NCBI RefSeq assembly: GCF_019132845.1
Contig: NZ_JAHSPR010000004.1
Coordinates: 248,001-312,000, forward strand
Direction of reading: 5' to 3'
Origin: Advenella alkanexedens
Lineage (GTDB): Bacteria > Pseudomonadota > Gammaproteobacteria > Burkholderiales > Burkholderiaceae_B
Length of the DNA: 64,000 bases
The notes beneath the pieces are model-generated. The model had not been told where the DNA came from. It made no database searches and was given only the letters and a program-made list of their open reading frames with translations. The translations under genes and the position numbers were made by a program. Position 1 is the stretch's first letter, and each line of letters begins with the position of its first letter. Of this stretch, positions 9,623 through 64,000 are shown in pieces.

Positions 9623-11956
9623 TTAATAAGAAGGCTTGAAAGACAAGAGTCTAAGCCCGTTTAAAACCACCAGCAGACTGGCACCCATATCGGCAAAAAC
9701 TGCCATCCACATAGTCCCCATTCCGCCCAAGGTTAACAGCAAGAACACCAGTTTAATACCCAGCGCCCAAACAATATTTTGCACCAACACCCGATATGTC
9801 ACACGGGATAATTCAATAAAGCACGGTATTTTACGCAAATCATCATCCATCAGCGCAACATCGGCCGTTTCAATGGCCGTATCCGTGCCCATGGCTCCCA
9901 TGGCAAAACCGATCTCGGCCCGTGCCAGGGCGGGTGCATCATTGATCCCATCTCCCACCATACCCACCATGCCTGATTTTTGCAATTCAGCAATTACATC
10001 CAGCTTGTTTTCCGGCATTTGCTGTCCAAGCGCACGATCTATACCTACCTGGCGGGCGATGGTTTGCACGGTTTGCGAATTGTCGCCTGACAACATGATT
10101 GTTTTAACGCCCTGCTCATGCAGTCGCTGAATGGCTTGCCGACTATCGGGCCTGACCGTATCCGCCACCGCAAAGACGGCCATTACCCGGTTCTGGCAAC
10201 ACAGCAAGACAACTGTTTTACCCTGGCTTTCAAAAGTATGTACGGCTTGTATTACCGAGGCATTAAGCAAACCCTGTTCAAGCGCACGCCGTGGGCTTTC
10301 AAGCATATATTCCACACCATTAATGACACCTTGCACACCCCGGCCAGGCAAAGCCTGAAAACCCTCAACCGGATAGGCCAGCACACCGTCTTTGCGGGCA
10401 GCCTGCGCGACCGCCATGGATACCGGATGATCAGACAGGCCTGCCAGACTGGCGGCTATTCTTCGCGCTTCCGTTTCGTCCAGACTGGCCTTCTCCTGAC
10501 CCACACGCCCTCCCGAAACCTGCGTAACCGCCAACTTTTCAGGCATCAGCATCATGTCGGTTTGCACCGGCTTGCCTTGTGTGAGGGTTCCTGTTTTATC
10601 CAGCGCCAGCCAACGCAGTTTCCGGCCTTTTTCCAGATAGGCAGCCCCCTTAACCAGCACACCATGTCGGGCCGCAGCGGTTAAACCACTTACCAGGGTA
10701 ACCGGTGTTGAAATAACCAGGGCGCAGGGACAGGCAATCACCAACAACACCAGTGCCATATAGATGGCATCAAGCCAGGCGGTTCCCAGGACAAAGGGCA
10801 TAAAAACGGCCACCAACAAGGCCAGCAGACAAACCGCAGGCGTATAATATTTGGCAAACTGGTCCACAAACCGTTGCAAGGGTGCTTTGCTTGCCTGGGC
10901 CTGTTCCACTACCCGTATAATCCGGGCCAAGGTACTGTTTTCAGCCAAAGTACCCACCCTGAACTCGAGCAGACCACTTTGATTGATGGTACCGGCATAC
11001 AGCTCATCACCCTGCCGCTTGTCAACAGGCATGCTTTCACCCGTAATGGGCGCCTGATCCACCGTGGAATACCCCTTGACAACCGTTCCGTCAAGCGGAA
11101 TCCGCTCTCCCGGACGGACCTGCACAAGCGTCCCGGTTCCTACCTGCCCAACCGGCAATTCCTGCCAGCCTTTATCCGCCAGATAAACCCAGGCGGTTTG
11201 CGGCACCATTTGCAACAGACCGCTCACGGCATGACGGGCACGATCCAGTGACCTGGCTTCCAGCAACTCGGCGATACTGAACAGCACCATCACCATGGCA
11301 GCTTCGGGCCATTGCCCGATCAACAATGCACAGCTGACCGCAATCGTCATGAGTGCATTGATGTTTAACTGCCAGTTGCACAAGGCAATAACACCCTTGC
11401 GGTAAGTGCCCAGACCCGATAAAAATACGGCCAGCACCGCCAGCAAGGCAGAAAATAGCCATGGCCCTTCTACCCAATGAATGACTTCTGAAGAAATGGC
11501 CAAAATGGCGGCCACAGGCAGTTTCCAGCCAAACGGAAAGCGGCTTTTCCGCATGCTGTTTTTGCCAGCCACTACATCCGTTTCGGCAGTCTCTGGCTCG
11601 AAGCCCAAGGATTTAATCGCCTCAAGAATTGCATCCAGGGCCTGAGGTTGATGCACGACCAACAATTCACGCTGCATCAAATTAAAGCTCATGGTCATGA
11701 CCCCCGCAGTATTCTCAAGCCGGCTCCTTATGAGCCGCTCTTCGGTTGGACAATCCATTTGCATGATACGAATGGGGGTATGCACGGCATTACCCACCAC
11801 CTGCCGGGAGGGCAAATCCCTGAACCCCTCTTTGGATTCATGATGAGCATGACCAGACTTATGATCGTGCCCGTGCCCGTGCTCGTGCTCATGAACATGT
11901 TCATGTTCATGTTCATGTTCATGCTTATTATTATGTTGCTGGCAACAGCCTGCCAT
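9623..11956 (-). CDS. cadA: Zn/Cd/Pb-exporting P1B-type ATPase
   Basis: Inner-membrane pump that exports divalent soft metals using ATP. The 777 residues start MAGCCQQHNNK, followed by a His/Glu-rich metal-binding tail (about residues 9-45) and a heavy-metal-associated domain with MDCPTEE near residue 70. The transmembrane metal site CPCALVIST, the phosphorylation motif DKTGTLTQGKP, and the hinge MVGDGINDAPALARAEIG are all present. CPC with the Cys-rich, His-rich N-terminus places it in the ZntA/CadA group rather than the copper group. The start at 11956 is chosen because GGAG lies 8 nt upstream; a start 4 codons earlier lacks this. It is divergent from a CadR/PbrR-type regulator with a shared operator. 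Confidence 0.94.
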   Translation of the reverse strand: MAGCCQQHNNKHEHEHEHEHVHEHEHGHGHDHKSGHAHHESKEGFRDLPSRQVVGNAVHTPIRIMQMDCPTEERLIRSRLENTAGVMTMSFNLMQRELLVVHQPQALDAILEAIKSLGFEPETAETDVVAGKNSMRKSRFPFGWKLPVAAILAISSEVIHWVEGPWLFSALLAVLAVFLSGLGTYRKGVIALCNWQLNINALMTIAVSCALLIGQWPEAAMVMVLFSIAELLEARSLDRARHAVSGLLQMVPQTAWVYLADKGWQELPVGQVGTGTLVQVRPGERIPLDGTVVKGYSTVDQAPITGESMPVDKRQGDELYAGTINQSGLLEFRVGTLAENSTLARIIRVVEQAQASKAPLQRFVDQFAKYYTPAVCLLALLVAVFMPFVLGTAWLDAIYMALVLLVIACPCALVISTPVTLVSGLTAAARHGVLVKGAAYLEKGRKLRWLALDKTGTLTQGKPVQTDMMLMPEKLAVTQVSGGRVGQEKASLDETEARRIAASLAGLSDHPVSMAVAQAARKDGVLAYPVEGFQALPGRGVQGVINGVEYMLESPRRALEQGLLNASVIQAVHTFESQGKTVVLLCCQNRVMAVFAVADTVRPDSRQAIQRLHEQGVKTIMLSGDNSQTVQTIARQVGIDRALGQQMPENKLDVIAELQKSGMVGMVGDGINDAPALARAEIGFAMGAMGTDTAIETADVALMDDDLRKIPCFIELSRVTYRVLVQNIVWALGIKLVFLLLTLGGMGTMWMAVFADMGASLLVVLNGLRLLSFKPSY
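11900..11923. repeat. hexanucleotide repeat (TTCATG)4 inside cadA
   Basis: Four exact TTCATG units (CATGAA on the coding strand) encode His-Glu dipeptides of the N-terminal His tail. Degenerate CTCATG/CTCGTG/CCCGTG units continue the pattern on the low-coordinate side. Because units are 6 bp, slippage would change the number of His residues without breaking the frame. Confidence 0.85.
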
Positions 11957-11992
11957 AACGTACTCCACTTATCCGGTTATTCATTTATAATG

Positions 11993-12023
11993 ATTAAACA
12001 CCTTGTAGCAACTACAAGGTCAA
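11993..12023 (-). promoter_or_regulatory. cadA promoter with MerR-family operator
   Basis: On the minus strand -35 TTGACC (12018-12023) and -10 TTTAAT (11993-11998) are separated by 19 bp, the stretched spacing typical of MerR-regulated promoters. Between and overlapping them lies a perfect 9-bp dyad ACCTTGTAG-caa-CTACAAGGT (12000-12020). This is the expected binding site of the divergent regulator, which would twist the promoter into an active form when metal is bound. Confidence 0.88.
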
Positions 12024-12042
12024 GTGTTTTCAGGAGTCAGCA

Positions 12043-12471
12043 ATGAAAATAGGTGAATTGGCCAGTTTGCTCAACTGCAAAACGGAAACTATTCGGTATT
12101 ACGAGAAAGAAGGCTTGTTACCCAAACCCGAGCGTAATGCCAGCAATTATCGTCACTATGGTGAGGCACATGTTAAACGCTTGCGGTTTATCCGCAATTG
12201 TCGCTCACTGGATATGACACATGACGAGATTCGCACTCTGCTAATGGTGCAGGATGTAAGCAATGGCAACTGCGCCTGCTTTAGCCAGGTGATCGAAGAA
12301 CACCTGGGACATGTGGATGCCCGTATTCAGGAGCTATTGCACCTGAAAGAGCAACTGATTGACTTGAGAAAGCAATGTGAAACCGCGCAGGCGGTGGAAA
12401 ACTGTGGCATTTTCAGGCAGCTTTCCACGATGGAAAGCACCGAACCACCTACACGCCATTCACATTTATAG
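12043..12471 (+). CDS. cadR: MerR-family Cd/Pb/Zn-responsive regulator (CadR/PbrR type)
   Basis: A 142-residue metal-sensing activator. The N-terminal winged helix is MKIGELASLLNCKTETIRYYEKEGLL. A dimerisation helix spans about residues 80-110. Candidate metal-binding cysteines lie at the start of that helix (SNGNCACFSQ, near residue 78) and in KQCETAQAVENCGIF (near residues 113 and 121), the arrangement known for CadR/PbrR. A CAGGAG ribosome site precedes the ATG. It is divergent from the metal ATPase it presumably controls. The extreme C-terminus ends RHSHL; unlike some CadR proteins it lacks a long His tail. It converges on pstB with 5 bp between stops. Confidence 0.92.
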   Translation: MKIGELASLLNCKTETIRYYEKEGLLPKPERNASNYRHYGEAHVKRLRFIRNCRSLDMTHDEIRTLLMVQDVSNGNCACFSQVIEEHLGHVDARIQELLHLKEQLIDLRKQCETAQAVENCGIFRQLSTMESTEPPTRHSHL

Positions 12472-55092: not shown

Positions 55093-55184
55093 TGCATAAG
55101 ACCAACCAACTGGTTACTGAATGCTGGTCCAATTGAACTGCGTATCGTATGATCTATGCATGCCATAAATACTACGCAGGTAAG

Positions 55185-56153
55185 ATGAAACGCAAAACAC
55201 CTCAAATTCCCTCTACCGAGCTCAAAACCATCCTGCATTCAAAACGGGCAAACCTTTATTACCTGGAACACTGCCGTGTTTTGGTAAATGGGGGCCGTGT
55301 TGAATATGTAACAGACCAAGGCTCTCAATCTTTATATTGGAACATTCCAATTGCCAATACAACATGTATTTTATTGGGAACTGGCACATCCATTACCCAG
55401 GCAGCCATGCGGGAACTTGCAAAAGCAGGCGTCATGATTGGTTTTAGCGGTGGTGGTGGAACACCTTTATTTGCAGGCACAGAAGCCGAAATAGCTTGCG
55501 AATTTTTAAGTCCGCAAAGTGAGTATCGCCCAACCGAATACCTGCAAAAATGGTGTCAATTCTGGTTTAACGATGACAAACGCTTGGTTGCGGCAAAAAA
55601 CCTGCAAACCCAACGCCTAATGGTTATACAAAAATTCTGGCCCAAGTTTGAATGGGATTATCCACATGAGCAACTGCTTGCCTTACTTGAAAATGCCTCG
55701 AATGAATTCAATAATGTCAACGACCATCAATCCTTATTAACCGCAGAAGCCCGATTAACCCTAAAACTTTATGCACTTGCCAATCGTGCCACCATTAATG
55801 ATAGTGATTTTAGCAGGAGTAGCAGAGGCAACAGTATTGACCCGGCAAACCGGTTTTTAGATCACGGCAACTATTTGGCCTATGGCTTGGGCGCAACGGG
55901 ATGTTGGGTTTTGGGTCTACCACATGGCCTGGCAATTTTACATGGAAAAACACGTCGTGGCGGTCTGGTTTTTGATGCGGCCGATATTATTAAAGATGCC
56001 ATGGTTTTGCCACAAGCCTTTATTTCAGCGCAGTCAGGGGATAGTGAAAGTGATTTCAGGCAAGCATGTATAAGTCAATTCGCGCGTTTTGAAGCTCTTG
56101 ATATTATTATTGATACCCTTAAACAATTAGCCCTTACTACCCATTCAGCATGA
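55185..56153 (+). CDS. cas1: type I-F CRISPR integrase Cas1
   Basis: DNA integrase that inserts new spacers together with the Cas2 domain of Cas2-3. From the ATG at 55185 (AGGTAAG ribosome site) it is 322 residues, near the family length. It follows I-F Cas1 closely: PSTELKTILHSKRANLYYLE, RVLVNGGRVEYVTDQG and YWNIPIANTTCILLGTGTSI. The metal-binding residues are consistent with Glu in TAEARLTLK, His in LPHGLAILHGKTRRGG and Asp in VFDAADIIKDAM. An in-frame ATG at 55149 would add 12 residues without a ribosome site. The stop overlaps the cas2-3 start by 4 bp. Confidence 0.97.
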   Translation: MKRKTPQIPSTELKTILHSKRANLYYLEHCRVLVNGGRVEYVTDQGSQSLYWNIPIANTTCILLGTGTSITQAAMRELAKAGVMIGFSGGGGTPLFAGTEAEIACEFLSPQSEYRPTEYLQKWCQFWFNDDKRLVAAKNLQTQRLMVIQKFWPKFEWDYPHEQLLALLENASNEFNNVNDHQSLLTAEARLTLKLYALANRATINDSDFSRSSRGNSIDPANRFLDHGNYLAYGLGATGCWVLGLPHGLAILHGKTRRGGLVFDAADIIKDAMVLPQAFISAQSGDSESDFRQACISQFARFEALDIIIDTLKQLALTTHSA

Positions 56154-59100
56154 ATATTCTGTTAGTCAGTCAATGCCATAAGAATGCCCTTAAAGAAACC
56201 CGCCGTATTCTGGACCAGTTTGCCGAACGCTGTGGCGAGCGCACGTGGCAAACGCCTATCACTCAGGCAGGTTTGAATACCTTACGAAAATTATTAAGGC
56301 AAACCGCACGCAAAAACACGGCTGTTGCATGTTATTGGACACATGGCAAAAACCTGACTGAACTTTTATGGATTGTTGGCGACCAAAGCCAGTTCAATGA
56401 ACAAGGCCGAGTACCTACCAACAAAACACGTCGCAATATTTTACGTGCAGAAGATGAAAACCGATGGGTACATGGCTCTACCATTCAAATTGTTGCTACT
56501 ATCGCTGCCCTGTTACATGACATTGGCAAAGCCAACATCGGATTTGCCAAAAAACTTAAACCTGATGCTCCGTTACAGGCAGATCCTTACCGACACGAGT
56601 GGATTTCCTTGCGACTGTTTCAAGCACTAATATACGGCTGCCCTGATGATGAATCATGGTTAAAACGTTTTACTGAATTAGATGTTTATTTTTCAAATAA
56701 TTCTGACTGGCTTGAGCACTTAATCAATGATGAGAAAAAAAATGATACATCTCATTCATTTGCCAATCTGCCCCCCATTGCCCAATTGGTTTCATGGTTG
56801 ATCGTTACACATCATCGCATGCCCATTGAGACATTCTATGCAGATAAGCCTGCCCGTATTCGTGCACAGTTAAATGGTGAGTTACTCAACCGTAATGCCA
56901 GTAATTTTTATAAAAAACTAAAAGCGGTTGATGGCTGGGTTAAAAACCAAAAAGCCAACGATGAACGCAAAGACAGCAAAGAGTTCTGGCAATTTTCCAA
57001 CCAGGCCATGTATAGCCAAAGCTGGCAGAAACATATGAAACGCTGGGCCGGCAAAGCTCTCAACCATCCGCCCCTTAAGAAACTGGCAGCATCAGGCACC
57101 ATTAGCGACCCTTTTATATTGCACTTGGCACGTTTAAGCCTGATGGTGGGGGATCACAATTACTCCAGCTTAAAAAGCAATGACCCTAAACGCCTACAGG
57201 GCGACAGTGAATTTGATCTGATTGCCAATACCGATAGTCAGGGCAAACCCAAACAAAAACTGGACGAACATTTGATGGGAGTTGGTCAATTCACCGCGCG
57301 TTTTTCACGTCTTCTACCCAAATTTTCCCAGGAGCTGCCTGCGATAAAAAAACATAAAACATTCAATCAACGCACTACTATCGCCCGCTTTAACTGGCAA
57401 AACAAAGCCTTCGACCTGGCCAGATCACTTCAGGAAAGCAGCCATCAAAACGGTTTCTTTGGGGTCAACATGGCTTCTACCGGTTGCGGTAAAACACTGG
57501 GGAATGCACGAATAATGGCTGCCTTGGCCAATCCTAAAGCTGGCGTACGTTTCACTATTGCATTAGGCTTGCGTGTTTTAACTTTACAAACCGGTGAGGC
57601 TTTACGCCAAAAACTCAATCTGGATGACAGCAGCCTTGCCGTTCTAGTGGGCGGCCATGCCATGCGTGAGCTTTTCAATCTTTCCCAGCAGGCACAACAA
57701 AATGAAAACAGATATGCCAATCTGGGTAGCGAATCCATGCAAGAACTGGTTGAGGAGATAGTTAACGTCTCGGAAAGTGGTATTGAGACTGAGGAGCTTG
57801 GTACTATTATTGCCGACACAAAAGCGCGGCAATTGCTTTATACACCTATTGTCAGCTGCACCATTGACCACTTAATGGCAGCAAGTGAAAATGGTCGTGG
57901 CGGTAAACACATAACTCCAATTCTTCGTCTGCTTTCATCTGATTTAATTCTGGATGAACCCGATGATTTTGATCATAACGACTTACCCGCCCTTAGCCGG
58001 CTGGTTTATTTAACCGGACTGTTTGGCAGCAGGGTGCTTCTTTCTTCCGCCACCCTCACCCCGGATCTTATTTGTGGCTTATTTTCCGCCTATAAAGCAG
58101 GTAGGGAAATATGGAATTTTCATAATCAACATCCCAATAGAGGGGTTGACTGTTTTTGGGTTGATGAACACCAGCAACAACATCAAACCCATGATGAGGC
58201 CAATGGTTTTGCCCTGTCCCACACTGCCTTTGTAGAAAAAAGGGTCATAAAACTTCGACAGGAACCTATACGTCGAATAGGCAGCATATTAACCGTTGAT
58301 AATTGCACTTCCCAAGAAGGCAAGAAAATAAATTACGCAGAGCTCGCAAAACTGTTACTAAATTCAGCACAACAAATGCACGTCCATCATCATGAGATAT
58401 GCCCAACCTCCAAAAAACAGGTAAGTATTGGCTTAATACGGCTTGCTAACACTAAAAACATTATTCAAGTCGTTAAAGCAATGTATGAGCAGGAGCTTAT
58501 CACCGACACCGTTCATTTTCATCTATGCTGTTACCATGCACGGCAATTGCTTGTTTTACGCAATGCACTGGAAGCAAAACTGGACAAAATCCTAAATCGC
58601 AATAAAGAAAATGCGATATTTAGCCATAATGAAATACAGGATGCTCTAGCCCAAAGCCCAGCAAAGCAGCACATATTTATTGTAATTAGTAGCCCTGTCA
58701 GTGAAGTGGGTCGTGATCATGATTATGACTGGGCAATCGTTGAACCTTCATCTATGCGTTCAATCATCCAATTGGCAGGACGTATATGGCGACACCGCCC
58801 TCAAAAAAGCACAATAATACCCAATATTGCGATTATGAACAAAAATATTCGTGCATTAATACAAAGTAGTATTGTCGCTTTTGAAAGACCTGGTTTTGAA
58901 GATGGGAAAAAGTTCAAATTGGATGCCCATAATATTGAAACCTTGATTGCAGAAGAACAACTGAACCCAATTAATGCCGTGCCTCGCGTGCAAAAACCCC
59001 AGAACTTAACTCCTAAAACCAAGCTTGCCGACCTGGAGCATGCTGTAATTGCTGATGTTATTAACAACGCCCAACGTAACTATGTCAATGCATTTTGGCA

Positions 59101-59491
59101 ACCCGGTTTAAGCCACCTGCTCTGGATTCAACTACAGTTACTCAGCCCCTTCAGACAGCAAGATGTGTTGCAAACCGAATATATATGCATGCCTGATGAC
59201 AGCAACGAAACAGGTTTCAGCTTTGTACCTTCGGATATCGCCTGGAAAAACCAAGATATCAACCAAGTAAAAACCGTTAACTACCTTATTTTATTTTCAC
59301 AGTTTAAACATCATAATCCCGTTGTTTCACCCTGGCTGACCTGTGACTTAAATGAAGAACTGGAAAAACTGGCAGAAGAAAGGGGCAAAGATTATTTAAC
59401 CACTGCCAAAGAATTTGCAACTATCTCACTGGAAAACTATGTTGAAAACAAATCATGGCATTTTCATCCCTGGCTGGGATTTTGGCGATAA
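56150..59491 (+). CDS. cas2-3: type I-F Cas2-Cas3 fusion (helicase-nuclease)
   Basis: Fusion diagnostic of type I-F; it degrades targets after Csy recruitment and takes part in adaptation with Cas1. It has 1113 residues. A Cas2-like domain covers about 1-95 (MNILLVSQCHKNALKETRRI). The HD nuclease has ALLHDIGKANIGFAKKL (His-Asp near 123) and THHRMP. The SF2 helicase has ASTGCGKTLGNARIM near 445, DLILDEPDDFDH near 602, LLSSATLTPDL, SPVSEVGRDHDYDWAIVEPSS and QLAGRIWRHRP near 878. All catalytic motifs are intact, so interference should be active. It starts inside the cas1 stop (ATGA). Confidence 0.97.
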   Translation: MNILLVSQCHKNALKETRRILDQFAERCGERTWQTPITQAGLNTLRKLLRQTARKNTAVACYWTHGKNLTELLWIVGDQSQFNEQGRVPTNKTRRNILRAEDENRWVHGSTIQIVATIAALLHDIGKANIGFAKKLKPDAPLQADPYRHEWISLRLFQALIYGCPDDESWLKRFTELDVYFSNNSDWLEHLINDEKKNDTSHSFANLPPIAQLVSWLIVTHHRMPIETFYADKPARIRAQLNGELLNRNASNFYKKLKAVDGWVKNQKANDERKDSKEFWQFSNQAMYSQSWQKHMKRWAGKALNHPPLKKLAASGTISDPFILHLARLSLMVGDHNYSSLKSNDPKRLQGDSEFDLIANTDSQGKPKQKLDEHLMGVGQFTARFSRLLPKFSQELPAIKKHKTFNQRTTIARFNWQNKAFDLARSLQESSHQNGFFGVNMASTGCGKTLGNARIMAALANPKAGVRFTIALGLRVLTLQTGEALRQKLNLDDSSLAVLVGGHAMRELFNLSQQAQQNENRYANLGSESMQELVEEIVNVSESGIETEELGTIIADTKARQLLYTPIVSCTIDHLMAASENGRGGKHITPILRLLSSDLILDEPDDFDHNDLPALSRLVYLTGLFGSRVLLSSATLTPDLICGLFSAYKAGREIWNFHNQHPNRGVDCFWVDEHQQQHQTHDEANGFALSHTAFVEKRVIKLRQEPIRRIGSILTVDNCTSQEGKKINYAELAKLLLNSAQQMHVHHHEICPTSKKQVSIGLIRLANTKNIIQVVKAMYEQELITDTVHFHLCCYHARQLLVLRNALEAKLDKILNRNKENAIFSHNEIQDALAQSPAKQHIFIVISSPVSEVGRDHDYDWAIVEPSSMRSIIQLAGRIWRHRPQKSTIIPNIAIMNKNIRALIQSSIVAFERPGFEDGKKFKLDAHNIETLIAEEQLNPINAVPRVQKPQNLTPKTKLADLEHAVIADVINNAQRNYVNAFWQPGLSHLLWIQLQLLSPFRQQDVLQTEYICMPDDSNETGFSFVPSDIAWKNQDINQVKTVNYLILFSQFKHHNPVVSPWLTCDLNEELEKLAEERGKDYLTTAKEFATISLENYVENKSWHFHPWLGFWR

Positions 59492-59585
59492 AAAACGTAT
59501 AGCAGTTCATTCTTCAAGCAGACTAAGACCCTCTTGCATTACCTTTCTGACAGCACTGCCACCTTCATGCATTTACTGTTATTTA

Positions 59586-59600
59586 CAGGTTTTCGACCTG
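59586..59600 (+). other. small hairpin upstream of the mini-CRISPR
   Basis: CAGGT-tttcg-ACCTG, a 5-bp stem with 5-nt loop, the same geometry as the Csy4 hairpins but with unrelated sequence and no handle-like tail. It overlaps a possible -35 (TTTACA, 59582-59587) that could pair with a weak -10 (TATTAG, 59606-59611, 18 bp spacing) to start a transcript just before the first degenerate repeat. It could be an operator or chance. Confidence 0.35.
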
Positions 59601-59622
59601 AAATCTATTAGAATGGCGGAGT

Positions 59623-59703
59623 TTTCTCCACCGAAAAGGTGGCTTATAAATTTCTATTTGCATATTTTTTGAAATTTTTACCGCCGAACAGGTGGTCGTT
59701 TCC
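59623..59703 (+). ncRNA. CreR-like mini-CRISPR: two degenerate repeats with one pseudo-spacer
   Basis: Repeat 1 (59623-59650) and repeat 2 (59676-59703) align to the 28-nt array repeat at about 17 and 11 positions. Both keep the Csy4 hairpin geometry: CCACC-gaaaa-GGTGG and CCGCC-gaaca-GGTGG against CTGCT-gcata-AGCAG in the array. The 5-bp stem, 5-nt loop, C6-G20 closing pair and loop bases G11, A13 and A15 are preserved. After repeat 1 comes CTTATAAA, 7 of 8 bases of the crRNA handle CTTAGAAA; repeat 2, which needs no handle, has lost it. The 25-nt pseudo-spacer (59651-59675) begins TTTCTATTTGCATATTTT and matches the csy1 promoter downstream. Predicted product: a guide for the Csy complex that represses csy transcription. 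Confidence 0.8.
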
Positions 59704-59731
59704 TCACAATCAAGATTAAAATTTAATTATT

Positions 59732-59768
59732 CCTTTCTATTTGCATATTTTAATAATAAACTTATAAT
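59732..59768 (+). promoter_or_regulatory. csy1 promoter overlapping a self-protospacer with CC PAM
   Basis: -35 TTGCAT (59741-59746) and -10 TATAAT (59763-59768) are 16 bp apart. Directly over the -35 lies TTTCTATTTGCATATTTT (59734-59751), identical to the first 18 nt of the mini-CRISPR pseudo-spacer. It is preceded at once by CC (59732-59733), the type I-F PAM in the right orientation. In the mini-array the same bases follow the repeat handle, not CC. Binding of a Csy complex here would block RNA polymerase. Match ends at position 19, so Cas2-3 cutting should not follow. Confidence 0.8.
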
Positions 59769-59812
59769 TAATATAAAAATAAATATATTTTCTTCTTGTT
59801 ACAGGATACGTC

Positions 59813-61189
59813 ATGAACAGTATAACCAAAGACCAAGTAGATCAAGCTATTCAAAATTTCCTTGCCGAGCAAATCAATAAAAAGACCGAAGACGAAGTTA
59901 AAAAGCTTGAAAAGGCCAAAATTGCGGGAAATATTACCGACATTGAAGCGCTTACAAAGCACATCAATGAAACACAAGAAAAATATGAGCTGAATACATG
60001 GATTGGTGACGCTGCCCATAGGCTATCCAAGCAACTGCATTTTGGAACACATATCTCCAAAGGCATTCACCCAGACAGCAAGGGTAACAATATCAATTTT
60101 CAAAGCATTCAGGAATTGCCTAAGCATCTTGTTGGTTCTCAATCTATTAAGCACCCCTCTTTGGATGCCACAGGCAACGCCGCTGCTCTCCCCTTGGCCT
60201 CATTCTTCAACACACCAATAGAAAACACAAACTACAAACTGCGCGACCTAATTCAGCATGAACATCCAGCACTAAAAAGCTGTTTTGCAAATGACAAAAT
60301 TCTTTCCGAGCAATATGCGCAAATTTTCAAAGACACCCTAGACAACAAAATCGAATTTCCCAAAACAGATGCGCGCAACAAACAACTGCTATGGCCTGCC
60401 AATACAGATACCATTGAGATAAATGGCGATGATTATATTTGCCTGATACCACTACACCCATCTGCTATGGTCAATCGACTTTATCAAAAAGTCAATGCAA
60501 AATACTCAGAAGAAAACAAACAAGCCCGAGAAAACAGCAAAAAGAAAAACACAGATAAAACCCAAGCCTATTTTTCCATTAATAATTTGGCAGTAGTTAA
60601 ATTAGGCGGCACCAAACCACAAAATATTTCACAATTAACCAGCTCCCAAGGAGGCCGCAATTATTTGCTGCCATCCCTGCCACCAAAAATTAACAGCAGA
60701 CCCAAATTTCATCTTGGGCAAAAACAAACCAGTCTATTTAATAAAAACTTAAGCTATTACTGTTTCGCCAGTATTCAGAATTTTTTCAACGTAATAGAAG
60801 AACAAGCAAACAACGTTGGCATTCGCACAAAAAGAAAAGAGGCTCTTGAAGAAATTATTAATAAAGTTTTTGAAATTGCTGACTCTATTCAGTCCACCTA
60901 TGAGCCAGGCTGGAGCAAAACCCATGATTTGGAATGGTCACAAAAATATTGGCTTGACCCCGAACGAGCCTTACTAATCAATGAAGAAAACTTCAAGGCA
61001 GATAAAGACAGCACAGACTGGATCAGTGAAATTGAACATGCTTTTGCCAGCTGGATCAACAGTTTAATCAGAAAAAACTTCCCAAAACTAAAAGAAAATA
61101 TTGCCGATCCTGAATATGCCGAATGGCGTAAAACACTACGTCGAAGAATAAAAGCCAGTGCACAAAAAAATGAAGGAGTATTTGAATGA
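59813..61189 (+). CDS. csy1: type I-F Csy1 (Cas8f), large subunit of the Csy complex
   Basis: Recognises the PAM and, with Csy2, caps the crRNA 5' handle in the Csy surveillance complex. The 458 residues begin MNSITKDQVDQAIQNFLAEQ and include PKHLVGSQSIKHPSLDATGNAAALPLASF, LLWPANTDTIEINGDDYICLIPLHPSAMVNRLYQKVN and AVVKLGGTKPQNISQLTSSQGGRNYLLPSLPP. The residues after GGRNYLLPS lie in the region that reads the PAM in characterised Csy1. AGGATACGTC precedes the ATG. The stop overlaps csy2 by 4 bp. Preceded by its own promoter, separate from cas1-cas2-3. Confidence 0.95.
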   Translation: MNSITKDQVDQAIQNFLAEQINKKTEDEVKKLEKAKIAGNITDIEALTKHINETQEKYELNTWIGDAAHRLSKQLHFGTHISKGIHPDSKGNNINFQSIQELPKHLVGSQSIKHPSLDATGNAAALPLASFFNTPIENTNYKLRDLIQHEHPALKSCFANDKILSEQYAQIFKDTLDNKIEFPKTDARNKQLLWPANTDTIEINGDDYICLIPLHPSAMVNRLYQKVNAKYSEENKQARENSKKKNTDKTQAYFSINNLAVVKLGGTKPQNISQLTSSQGGRNYLLPSLPPKINSRPKFHLGQKQTSLFNKNLSYYCFASIQNFFNVIEEQANNVGIRTKRKEALEEIINKVFEIADSIQSTYEPGWSKTHDLEWSQKYWLDPERALLINEENFKADKDSTDWISEIEHAFASWINSLIRKNFPKLKENIADPEYAEWRKTLRRRIKASAQKNEGVFE

Positions 61190-62118
61190 GTTACCTAAGC
61201 AATTACCTTGTGCTGAACAAAATTCGTATTCAAAACGCCAATGCCATTTCAAGCCCACTAACCTATGGTTTTCCGGCCATTAGTGGTTTTATTGGTGCCA
61301 TTCATGCCCTTAACCGAAAAATCAAAAACATTTTCCCTGGTATAAGACTTGATGGCACCTTAATTGCTTGTCATGAATATCATTTACATGCCTATCGCCC
61401 ATATAACTCGGCAGACTATACATTCAACCTAACTAGAAACCCCATCAAAAAAGATGGGAAAACCGCTGCCATTGTGGAAGAAGGCAGAATTGATTTAACT
61501 GTGAGCCTGGTAATTGAAGTATTCGACGATATTGATCTAAGCGATAACGATGCGTTACAACAAAAACTAATTGATTACGTACAAAAACAAATGATGCAAC
61601 AACGACTTGCCAGTGGCAGCGTTATGCACATTCAAAAAGCATCTCTTGTGCCCGCATATGGCGAAGAAGGGATTTCTCCCATTATCAACTCATTAATACC
61701 CGCCTTTGTATTAATGGATGCCGCTCAGGAACTGGTTGATATAACCAACGAATTAAAAGCCAAACATCCAGATGCAACCCCGCTTGATGCCTTAATAGAA
61801 ACAGCCACACTGCACCACGTACCGGAAACGGATAGTGACGAACCTGAGGCCACTCAATGGAAAACAAAAAGCATTAAGACCGGCAGGGGCTGGATTGTTC
61901 CTATTGCAGTTGGATATCAAGGCATTTACGAACCCTTTACCTGCGGTGAACTGGAAAACTGTCGTACATCTGAATACCCCAGTCAATATGTTGAGTGCAT
62001 TTACTCATTAGGGAAATGGGTTTTTCCATATCGGATAGAAGACAATTTTAATTCTGCTTTTTGGCGTTTTAAGCAGCCAGAAAACAATCTTTATTTAATT
62101 TCACAATCTGAATATTAA
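61186..62118 (+). CDS. csy2: type I-F Csy2 (Cas5f)
   Basis: Cas5-like subunit that forms a dimer with Csy1 and holds the crRNA 5' end. The 310 residues begin MSYLSNYLVLNKIRIQNANA. ISSPLTYGFPAISGFIGAIHALNRKI near residue 22 is the family hallmark. Later motifs include RLASGSVMHIQKASLVPAYG, AAQELVDITNELKAKHPDATPLDALI and GRGWIVPIAVGYQGIYEPF. It overlaps csy1 and is followed 13 bp later by csy3. Confidence 0.95.
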   Translation: MSYLSNYLVLNKIRIQNANAISSPLTYGFPAISGFIGAIHALNRKIKNIFPGIRLDGTLIACHEYHLHAYRPYNSADYTFNLTRNPIKKDGKTAAIVEEGRIDLTVSLVIEVFDDIDLSDNDALQQKLIDYVQKQMMQQRLASGSVMHIQKASLVPAYGEEGISPIINSLIPAFVLMDAAQELVDITNELKAKHPDATPLDALIETATLHHVPETDSDEPEATQWKTKSIKTGRGWIVPIAVGYQGIYEPFTCGELENCRTSEYPSQYVECIYSLGKWVFPYRIEDNFNSAFWRFKQPENNLYLISQSEY

Positions 62119-62131
62119 GGAGTTATACACA

Positions 62132-63142
62132 ATGGCAAAATTATCTACTGCAAGTGTATTGGCATTTGAACGAAATTTAGATATATCTGATTGTACCTTC
62201 GAACAACTCGACAGCCAAAACCCGGATAACAAAAAAACAGTCGTTAACGTCCGGGAAAAATCAGTCCGTGGAACCATTTCCAATCGTTTAAAAAATACAA
62301 TCACAAATGATCCTGCAAAACTGGATGCCGAAATTGAAAAAGCAAACCTTCAAAAAGTGGATGTAGCAACCCTGGATAATGACAAAGATACGCTTGTTGC
62401 CTGTTTCAGTTGTAAGGTTCTGCCCTTTACCGGCAAACCCAATGTTTGTAATGACCCCGACTACCAAATCAAACTGCTTTCTACTGTCCAGTCTTATCTT
62501 AACGAAACTGGTTTAAGCACTTTAGCCCGCCGTTATGCTATTAATATTGCCAACGCCCGTTGGCTTTGGAGAAATAGAATTGGTGCAGAAAAAATCCATG
62601 TAACAGTAAGCTGCTCGATTGATGGGGAAAAATTTTCTCTTTCTTTTGATAATGCAAAAAACTTGCCTTTAAACTCATTTGATATTGAGAATGAGCAAAT
62701 CGATCAATTAGCCAAAATTATTGAGCAAGGGTTCAAAAATGAGCAATTTGTTATCTTATACATTGAAGCACAAGCCATTGTAGGTTATGGCCAGGAAGTT
62801 TATCCCTCTCAAGAATTGATTTTGGACACAGGAAAAACAAAAAGCAAAGTACTCTATCAAATTGGTGATGTAGCCAGCATACACTCCCAAAAAATTGGTA
62901 ATGCCCTGCGTACCATTGACACCTGGTACAGTGATGACGCCCAATTCCCGATCGCTGCTGAACCCTATGGTTCTGTCACAACTTTAGGGACAGCATTTAG
63001 ACAACCCAAAGCTAAAAAGGATTTTTATACACTATTCGACAACTGGATATTAAAAGATGAAAAACCAAGTCCAGAAGATCAACATTATGTAATTTCAGTC
63101 CTAATTCGTGGTGGTGTATTTGGCGCTGCAGGCAAGGAGTAA
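62132..63142 (+). CDS. csy3: type I-F Csy3 (Cas7f), backbone subunit
   Basis: Forms the helical backbone (six copies on a 32-nt spacer) that holds the crRNA. The 336 residues begin MAKLSTASVLAFERNLDISDC. Conserved pieces are KSVRGTISNRLKN, CSCKVLPFTGKPNVCNDPDY-like CFSCKVLPFTGKPNVCNDP, ARRYAINIANARWLWRNRIGAEKIHV, and IDTWYSDDAQFPIAAEPYGSV near the C-terminus. An AGGAG lies before the ATG. Csy4 starts 2 bp after its stop. Confidence 0.96.
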   Translation: MAKLSTASVLAFERNLDISDCTFEQLDSQNPDNKKTVVNVREKSVRGTISNRLKNTITNDPAKLDAEIEKANLQKVDVATLDNDKDTLVACFSCKVLPFTGKPNVCNDPDYQIKLLSTVQSYLNETGLSTLARRYAINIANARWLWRNRIGAEKIHVTVSCSIDGEKFSLSFDNAKNLPLNSFDIENEQIDQLAKIIEQGFKNEQFVILYIEAQAIVGYGQEVYPSQELILDTGKTKSKVLYQIGDVASIHSQKIGNALRTIDTWYSDDAQFPIAAEPYGSVTTLGTAFRQPKAKKDFYTLFDNWILKDEKPSPEDQHYVISVLIRGGVFGAAGKE

Positions 63143-63144
63143 GT

Positions 63145-63720
63145 ATGTCGGAGCTATCCCATTACTTTGATGTTAAAGCAATTCCACAAGCTGATATAAC
63201 TCAATCCCAAGTAATTAGCCATATTATGCAATTATTACATCAGCTACTCCCAAAATTCAATGGGAAAATTGGTCTTAGCTTTCCGGCCTATGGACAACAA
63301 AAAACCTTAGGAGGAATTATCCGTCTTTTGGGAGGTGAAAAAGACATTTCTGCCATTAATCAAGAAGCACTGCTACTCAATAGCATGAAAGACTACGCCT
63401 TAATCGGCGCTGTTATTCCCATTCCAGAAACAGTCAATAGCTATGCTTATTTTAGCCGTCTCCATCACAAAGGAGCCAGCCATATCAGGAGAAGCCAAAA
63501 GCGATTAACTGAACGAGGGGAGTGGTCTGATGAGATTGCAGAAAATATGCTTGCAAAATATATGAAGCAAAAAAATTATCCTCATGTTCATTTAAAAAGC
63601 AGTACTACTGGCCAAAACTGGATACTCCAGATAAAACGGCAGCAGACTAATCTCCCTAGCAATAAGGGGATGTTCAACTCCTTTGGATTAAGTACACAAC
63701 TTACTGTACCTCTTTTTTAA
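63145..63720 (+). CDS. csy4: type I-F Csy4 (Cas6f), crRNA-processing endonuclease
   Basis: Cuts pre-crRNA at the base of each repeat hairpin and stays bound to it. The 191 residues begin MSELSHYFDVKAIPQ. The general-base His is His32 in QLLHQLLP (His29 of the Pseudomonas enzyme). The Arg-rich helix that reads the RNA major groove is SHIRRSQKRLTERGEW. The catalytic Ser region corresponds to HLKSSTTGQNW. Near the C-terminus MFNSFGLS has Phe where Pseudomonas Csy4 has Tyr176 (CYGLS), a change expected to be tolerated. AGGAGTAAGT precedes the ATG. Confidence 0.95.
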   Translation: MSELSHYFDVKAIPQADITQSQVISHIMQLLHQLLPKFNGKIGLSFPAYGQQKTLGGIIRLLGGEKDISAINQEALLLNSMKDYALIGAVIPIPETVNSYAYFSRLHHKGASHIRRSQKRLTERGEWSDEIAENMLAKYMKQKNYPHVHLKSSTTGQNWILQIKRQQTNLPSNKGMFNSFGLSTQLTVPLF

Positions 63721-63727
63721 ATTTTGA

Positions 63728-63794
63728 CCCTTTTTAAAGCCAATAATAAATACAATATAAAATCAATGAGTTAGACATCGGCTTTAAAAAAGGG
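63728..63794. repeat. inverted repeat framing the distal IHF site in the leader
   Basis: CCCTTTTTAAAGCC (63728-63741) and GGCTTTAAAAAAGGG (63780-63794) are reverse complements apart from one extra A. The 38 bp between them hold the distal IHF site near the centre. Type I-F leaders are known to use such upstream motifs, brought to the integrase by IHF bending. Confidence 0.75.
63761..63773 (+). promoter_or_regulatory. IHF site, leader-distal
   Basis: AATCAATGAGTTA is a perfect match to WATCAA-N4-TTR. Its centre is about 89 bp upstream of repeat 1. Confidence 0.75.
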
Positions 63795-63814
63795 GAAAAA
63801 CCATAATTATTCTT

Positions 63815-63855: not shown

Positions 63856-64000
63856 GTTCACTGCTGCATAAGCAGCTTAGAAATTGACGGTAGGCGTAAT
63901 GCGGTGGGCTTCGTCGTTCACTGCTGCATAAGCAGCTTAGAAAGTAACGATATTCAGGCAAGGCATGGAAATAAAGTTCACTGCTGCATAAGCAGCTTAG
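63856..64000 (+). CRISPR. type I-F CRISPR array, leader end; continues past the window
   Basis: Repeats of 28 nt start GTTCACTGCTGCATAAGCAG and end CTTAGAAA. Copies are at 63856-63883 and 63916-63943; a third at 63976 is cut after 25 nt by the window end. Two spacers of exactly 32 nt lie at 63884-63915 and 63944-63975. The hairpin is CTGCT-gcata-AGCAG, cut by Csy4 after G20 to leave the CTTAGAAA handle. Repeats are identical where visible. Neither spacer was noticed elsewhere in the window. Confidence 0.98.

Follow-up and report, generated by a model that had tools for sequence, protein, structure and literature searches.

CRISPR (clustered regularly interspaced short palindromic repeats) systems of types I-B, I-E, and V-A have been reported to contain CreR, a Cas-regulating RNA (Liu et al. 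2023, Cell Host Microbe), which reviews outline as an autorepression that acts via the effector and senses the supply of CRISPR RNA (crRNA) and the presence of anti-CRISPRs (PMC13131331, PMC12948488, PMC12737573). In the type I-F system of Acinetobacter, Csy-dependent repression by a crRNA-like guide, CreA, was shown, and its account describes creT, a conserved open reading frame (ORF) of 33 bp with a Shine-Dalgarno (SD) sequence, downstream of the target (PMC10097628). Autorepression has also been described for SpyCas9 (PMC13131331). The regulators of type I-F systems that we found in the literature are CRP-cAMP, GalM, Rsm, BaeR, H-NS, and small RNAs acting on the array leader; as these are presented in their sources, none is a guide-based autorepression of cas genes. 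Our literature searches retrieved no paper on a CreR of type I-F, which is not proof of absence; the CreR supplement may hold candidates. Here, we analyse a mini-CRISPR (positions 59623-59703) lying between cas2-3 and csy1 of a type I-F locus in Advenella alkanexedens, within a stretch of 64,000 nucleotides of contig NZ_JAHSPR010000004.1 (hereafter the window). We consider it probable (roughly 0.8) that this element encodes a crRNA-like regulatory RNA, a CreR of type I-F, by which Csy represses csy1-4.

A mini-CRISPR with a self-matching guide upstream of csy1

The element consists of two degenerate repeats, psiR1 and psiR2, flanking a pseudo-spacer that would serve as the guide (Table 1). The guide length of 25 nt assumes that psiR2 begins five bases before its stem, like the canonical repeat. 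The element does not qualify as a canonical I-F array, because psiR1 is identical to the array repeat at only 17 of 28 positions and the guide is shorter than the 32-nt spacers. Nevertheless, 7 of the 8 handle positions are identical between psiR1 (CTTATAAA) and the canonical array (CTTAGAAA), and the geometry is equal: both hairpins keep the canonical layout of 5 nt, a 5-bp stem, a 5-nt loop, and an 8-nt handle. A pair such as psiR1/psiR2, by the criteria of the survey described below, never appeared in 3000 shuffles of the gap, and psiR1 alone appeared in five. In Rfam, psiR1 matched CRISPR-DR4 (E=0.043, 21.5 bits), below the gathering score of 35; matches to lysM-TM7 and CRISPR-DR18 were weaker than this one and were taken as chance.

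Table 1. Features at the cas end of the window (positions in the window).
Feature	Position	Strand	Details
cas2-3 (type I-F Cas3f)	56150..59491	+	TIGR02562, E=0; upstream neighbour of the gap
cas2-3/csy1 intergenic region	59492..59812	+	321 nt, 32% G+C
psiR1, degenerate I-F repeat	59623..59650	+	stem CCACC/GGTGG, loop GAAAA, handle CTTATAAA
Pseudo-spacer (putative guide)	59651..59675	+	25 nt; initial 18 nt identical to the target
psiR2, second degenerate repeat	59676..59703	+	stem CCGCC/GGTGG with one G-U, loop GAACA
CC, protospacer-adjacent motif (PAM) of the target	59732..59733	+	sequence
Target (protospacer)	59734..59751	+	18-nt exact match; p=0.001 in the survey test
Predicted csy1 promoter	59740..59768	+	TTTGCA-17 nt-TATAAT (or TTGCAT, 16 nt); 10 of 12
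AGGA, probable csy1 ribosome-binding site	59803..59806	+	sequence
csy1, first of csy1-csy2-csy3-csy4	59813..61189	+	TIGR02564, E=9e-115; csy2, csy3, csy4 also above cut-off
Start of the canonical I-F array	63856..64000	+	100 repeats; extends to G000:C15:317825

The first 18 nt of the guide, TTTCTATTTGCATATTTT, are found at 59651-59668 and again at 59734-59751, 79 nt before the csy1 ATG. This exact recurrence had been claimed in the initial annotation, as had the CC PAM of the csy1-side copy only, and both statements are correct: the two bases before the mini-array copy are AA. The same annotation spoke of a seed-length match, but 18 bp exceeds a seed. The 3' part of the guide beyond these 18 nt is unmatched at the target.

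We scanned the draft genome (2.99 Mb in 20 contigs, 99.5% complete) and found no exact copy of TTTCTATTTGCATATTTT other than these two. With positions 6 and 12 disregarded, only the csy1-side copy combines a full match with a preceding CC. The next-best sites have 2 mismatches, and 28 sites, including both copies of TTTCTATTTGCATATTTT, have at most 3, compared with 19 for a reversed control pattern. Dinucleotide shuffling of the gap (321 nt, 300 rounds) gave no exact direct repeat longer than 13 nt, and about 1e-5 repeat pairs of at least 18 nt are expected from base frequencies, so that chance can be disregarded as the origin of the recurrence. Elsewhere in the window, among 199 pieces of 321 nt that were not aligned to the csy1 gap, those at ~322-642 and 11878-12198 contain direct repeats that are exact over 19 and 22 nt, and the next longest has 13 nt.

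Guides matching their own locus recur among type I-F loci

We collected csy1 loci in five sets: genomes near that of the window (6 of 61), the order (21 of 399) and the class (34 of 369) to which it belongs, genome contigs, and viral contigs. For the genome contigs, we used the 80 best of 550 confirmed relatives; the survey therefore leans towards the kin of the window. Six viral contigs encode Csy3; an ORF search revealed csy1 in two of them, neither with a mini-CRISPR. After removal of 14 same-place duplicates, the 147 loci with csy1 became 133, among which some close kin may remain. In 70 of these, where no array repeat was visible, a generic I-F repeat took its place. We retained 45 of 77 repeat pairs, the other 32 either belonged to arrays or were additional pairs, in loci L074 (10), L080 (3), L085 (10), L094 (8), and L071 (1); this choice was made before the scan for targets. 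That scan compared CC-flanked matches of each guide in the same region with those of shuffled guides, using weights that ignore positions 6, 12, and 18. The weights were set after seeing locus L008 and before the survey. For a single guide, L008 shows two matches next to CC: the first adjoins a promoter-like pair and is mismatched at 6, 12, and 18, and the second, immediately upstream of csy1, begins with 11 matching bases.

A mini-CRISPR stands upstream of csy1 in 45 of the 133 loci, the window included. It was never found in gaps shorter than 60 nt (37 loci), once in the 15 gaps of 60-150 nt, in 37 of the 58 gaps of at least 150 nt, and in 7 of the 23 loci where cas3 was not seen upstream. 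All 45 guides have a match with a CC PAM in the same region (each p<0.005, and 41 at p<=0.001). When CC was replaced by nine other dinucleotides, 0 to 3 of the 45 matched at p<0.02. The test is calibrated, with no excess of matches (p<0.05) among canonical array spacers (20 of 362, from 25 loci with at most 20 per locus) or among guides swapped between loci (15 of 360). The arrangement, each time with its own matching guide, thus recurs in many I-F loci. Several guides of Gilliamella differ and yet match their own locus, so guide and target change together.

The matches have a distinctive profile across the 41 non-redundant loci that remain once four near-identical guides are left out. Each of positions 1-5 matches in all 41, positions 7-11 in 36-40, and positions 13-17 in 31-38, whereas the counts for positions 6, 12, and 18 are 14, 8, and 14, close to the chance rate; beyond position 18, the match fades. 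The backbones of type I guides (Cas7/Csy3) flip out every sixth base. Since the mismatches fall at these very bases, they point to pairing between guide and DNA in Csy rather than to a protein operator. The zero weight given to positions 6, 12, and 18 may leave these at chance, but it cannot produce a near-perfect match elsewhere. We dropped the idea of active mismatching at positions 6 and 12, where 14/41 and 8/41 are near the expected 0.30 and 0.21. The survey upholds the interpretation of the pseudo-spacer as a guide in the initial annotation, whose statements on PAM, register, strand, and position are correct: all 45 loci match, with mismatches concentrated at every sixth base.

Predicted mode of action

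Because the guide of the window is aimed at csy1, the mechanism would be of the CreR type, in which an effector that carries a crRNA-like RNA represses the genes encoding it. Csy4 would cleave downstream of each stem; the released RNA, with CUUAUAAA as its handle, some 25 nt of guide, and a hairpin at its 3' end, would assemble with Csy1-Csy3. The complex would locate CC and the 18 matching bases at the predicted csy1 promoter, and its footprint over the -35, and probably the -10, would block RNA polymerase. Cas2-3 is not expected to be engaged there because pairing ends after 18 bp; we infer this absence of licensing by analogy with Acinetobacter CreA, in which 17 of 20 guide bases pair with the target (PMC10097628). 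The conservation of 41 partial matches also suggests binding without cleavage. An ordinary self-targeting spacer, leading to cleavage or primed spacer uptake, would have the PAM and an 18-bp match, both of which exist here. It is nonetheless extremely unlikely, given a guide of 25 instead of 32 nt with an unmatched 3' part and the partial matches of 45 loci, when canonical spacers show no such excess.

Under the CreR reading, csy1-4 would be subject to negative feedback, in which surplus effector represses. Repression would be relieved by a shortage of effector, by competition from the crRNAs of the 100-repeat array, or by an anti-CRISPR that prevents DNA binding by Csy. As 100 array repeats compete for it, the effector would act through this guide only when in surplus. 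We infer from the sequence the transcription, processing, binding, repression, and inhibitor response of the mini-CRISPR RNA.

Promoter signals and alternative explanations

Several observations weigh against this reading, the first being the weakness of the promoter call in the window. The target covers the predicted -35 of a promoter match at 10 of 12 positions, for which TTTGCA (59740-59745) and TTGCAT (59741-59746) are both candidates, with a perfect TATAAT at 59763-59768 and the csy1 ATG (59813) 44 nt past the -10. The elements of the promoter named in the initial annotation are therefore present (TTGCAT, TATAAT, their 16-nt spacing, and the distance to csy1), but the promoter itself is only predicted. 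On its own, it is not above chance (2 sites on both strands, against 2.0 in shuffles), because so A+T-rich a stretch yields as many sites when shuffled. Across the 41 loci, promoter-like pairs (at least 9 of 12) adjoin the target in 18, compared with a mean of 5.6 in mononucleotide shuffles (standard deviation 2.2, maximum 15, 500 rounds), although such pairs also occur in 11 loci on the mirror strand around the targets. Mini-CRISPR and target share the minus strand in 26 loci; of these, 10 have a -35-like start (TTGA, TTTA, TTGT) at offset 22, directly after the PAM, and five have one at offset 24.

The guide of the window also differs from most of its kind in pairing at positions 6, 12, and 18. 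In addition, TTAT stands ahead of the last three bases before both copies of TTTCTATTTGCATATTTT, so that 22 of 25 nt are alike. These two features make a recent local duplication possible as the source of the 18-nt repeat, and the match at 6, 12, and 18 suggests that the guide was recently derived from the promoter. No csy1 match was found in nine genomes of the same genus, so close relatives offer no comparison for this exact guide. The repeat could also stem from duplication of a promoter fragment or serve as a protein operator, in either case with no role in a guide RNA, a view that would account for the shared flank and for identities that pairing does not require. We regard it as very improbable, because the match begins exactly after the repeat-like handle and exactly after CC, and because all 45 elements, with 41 different guides, match their loci with mismatches at every sixth base.

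Further difficulties concern the RNA itself. The 88 nt at 59618-59705, folded whole, pair psiR1 with psiR2 instead of forming two hairpins; the repeats of a canonical repeat-spacer-repeat unit likewise pair with each other. Cleavage by Csy4 is not assured, since the sequences of the psiR stems diverge from the canonical repeat. Our scan of the gap found neither a promoter nor a terminator of the mini-array's own, which may be transcribed by read-through from cas2-3. The missing signals and the low identity of psiR1 would both be expected of a former regulatory guide, now decayed, that has lost its processing or transcription. Such decay seems improbable: folded alone, the hairpins retain their geometry and stability (-8 kcal/mol for psiR1 and -9.3 kcal/mol for psiR2), and the 18-nt match, which decay would erode, is perfect. 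Degenerate repeats are also part of the description of Acinetobacter CreA (PMC10097628).

Target classes and the toxin question

The element could instead be the CreA antitoxin of a CreTA module, in which the repressed promoter would make a small toxic RNA, as in the type I-F system of Acinetobacter. Its place in the cas3-csy1 gap, its anatomy of two degenerate repeats, and its CC PAM are those published for CreA (PMC10097628). We classed the targets of the 41 loci by position and found 18 distal, 18 proximal (including the window), and five far ones, the class being unsure for four proximal loci (L022, L037, L049, L062) where the csy1 start is uncertain. Distal targets lie ~200-310 nt before csy1, except one at 555. 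In 11 of these 18 loci (L011, L020, L040, L042, L044, L045, L107, L112, L120, L125, L144), an SD-led ORF of 7-13 codons is found 80-160 nt from the target, against a mean of 0.8 and a maximum of 3 in 200 rounds of shuffling. Several of these mini-ORFs end in RRA or RRV, and several are preceded by a strong hairpin. They resemble creT as described in Acinetobacter (PMC10097628) and are possibly uncharacterised creT toxins of I-F systems in many families.

SD-led mini-ORFs are absent from the 18 proximal and the five far loci; for the proximal loci, this is statistically uninformative because the stretch is shorter. The window itself has no room for a toxin gene. Its 57 nt between the target region and csy1 (18% G+C) contain no SD-led mini-ORF and no strong hairpin, nor is there such an ORF leftward on the other strand. 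A toxic RNA lacking an ORF of this kind would have only these 57 nt to occupy. A creA-like mini-CRISPR with a PAM-flanked target is thus found without a creT downstream, and we consider an antitoxin role in the window unlikely.

Other loci also have targets close to csy1. In three Pasteurellaceae-like loci (L080, L085, L094), the minus strand carries the target no more than ~35 nt from where csy1 starts, leaving no room for a toxin, and we view them as further CreR candidates. In L080, the complement of the PAM, GG, falls in the likely ribosome-binding site. In the five far loci (L078, L082, L088, L089, L095), from Gilliamella and Frischella, an A+T-rich stretch of 520-890 nt separates the target from csy1.

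Locus context and descent

The type I-F locus lies at the end of the window and comprises cas1, cas2-3, and csy1-csy4, all above NCBIfam cut-offs, followed by an array of 100 identical repeats that reaches near the contig end. The same spacer follows array repeats 4 and 6 (G000:C15:312036 and 312156). The interval between csy4 and the array contains an inverted repeat (63722-63799, arms of 23 nt, 32 nt apart) that starts with TTTTGACCC, a sequence also found 3' of csy4 in loci L009 and L010.

We built a tree of Csy1 by a quick method for 124 of the 133 loci, nine having been left out by the length and score of Csy1. The Csy1 of the window groups with Pasteurellaceae and Orbaceae loci (Shimodaira-Hasegawa-like approximate likelihood ratio test, SH-aLRT, 94), near Alcaligenaceae. 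The cas genes (55149-63720) have 41% G+C, against 49.7% for positions 1-50000, and this low content, together with the grouping of Csy1 with Orbaceae and Pasteurellaceae, indicates that the cas locus was probably acquired horizontally. When plasmids were searched with the gap in a distant similarity mode, nothing matched.

The smallest set around the window with a support of at least 95 has 41 rows. It includes all 15 mini-CRISPRs on the csy1 strand, alongside 3 on the other strand. Orientation changes 3 times among the 44 labelled rows, compared with 12.7 in shuffles, a count that leaves out the 80 rows lacking a labelled mini-CRISPR. Mini-CRISPR orientation is therefore largely inherited. 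The cas locus of L094, whose record is titled Pseudomonas stutzeri NCTC11607, falls within Pasteurellaceae; the record may be mislabelled or the locus transferred.

Comparison with known systems

Type I-F is a main model for work on anti-CRISPRs. If our reading is true, these inhibitors raise the supply of Cas proteins, and the deletion of csy genes or the overloading of the array alters csy expression. The natural guides are also 41 different partial matches, useful for deriving rules of target recognition.

Cas9 autorepression, by a natural single guide reportedly named tracr-L, resembles the predicted circuit in that an effector keeps down its own expression until anti-CRISPRs lift the repression. 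Its effector, however, belongs to class 2, and it is not known to involve a mini-CRISPR. The Racr RNA anti-CRISPRs also have a repeat-like element outside an array, but theirs is described as a solitary repeat on a viral genome (PMC10651486), whereas the window has two repeats beside cas2-3 and csy1.

In the published Acinetobacter module (PMC10097628), creA runs divergently from creT, the toxin gene that it represses; the guide of the window aims at the predicted csy1 promoter. We lean slightly towards the view that the I-F cas2-3/csy1 gap is a dedicated slot for regulatory guides, switched between CreTA and CreR. The form in the window would exert feedback on the interference genes only, with Csy gauging unused capacity that is refilled when crRNAs or anti-CRISPRs tie Csy up.

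CreR, as outlined in the reviews cited above, has a mini-CRISPR with a crRNA-like guide and partial complementarity to a cas promoter. In the window, we observe degenerate cognate repeats, a PAM-adjacent match just upstream of cas genes, and no toxin gene, and autorepression is only predicted. The element differs from the CreR described in those reviews in belonging to type I-F, in lying between cas2-3 and csy1 on the csy1 strand, and in being aimed at the interference half of the system.
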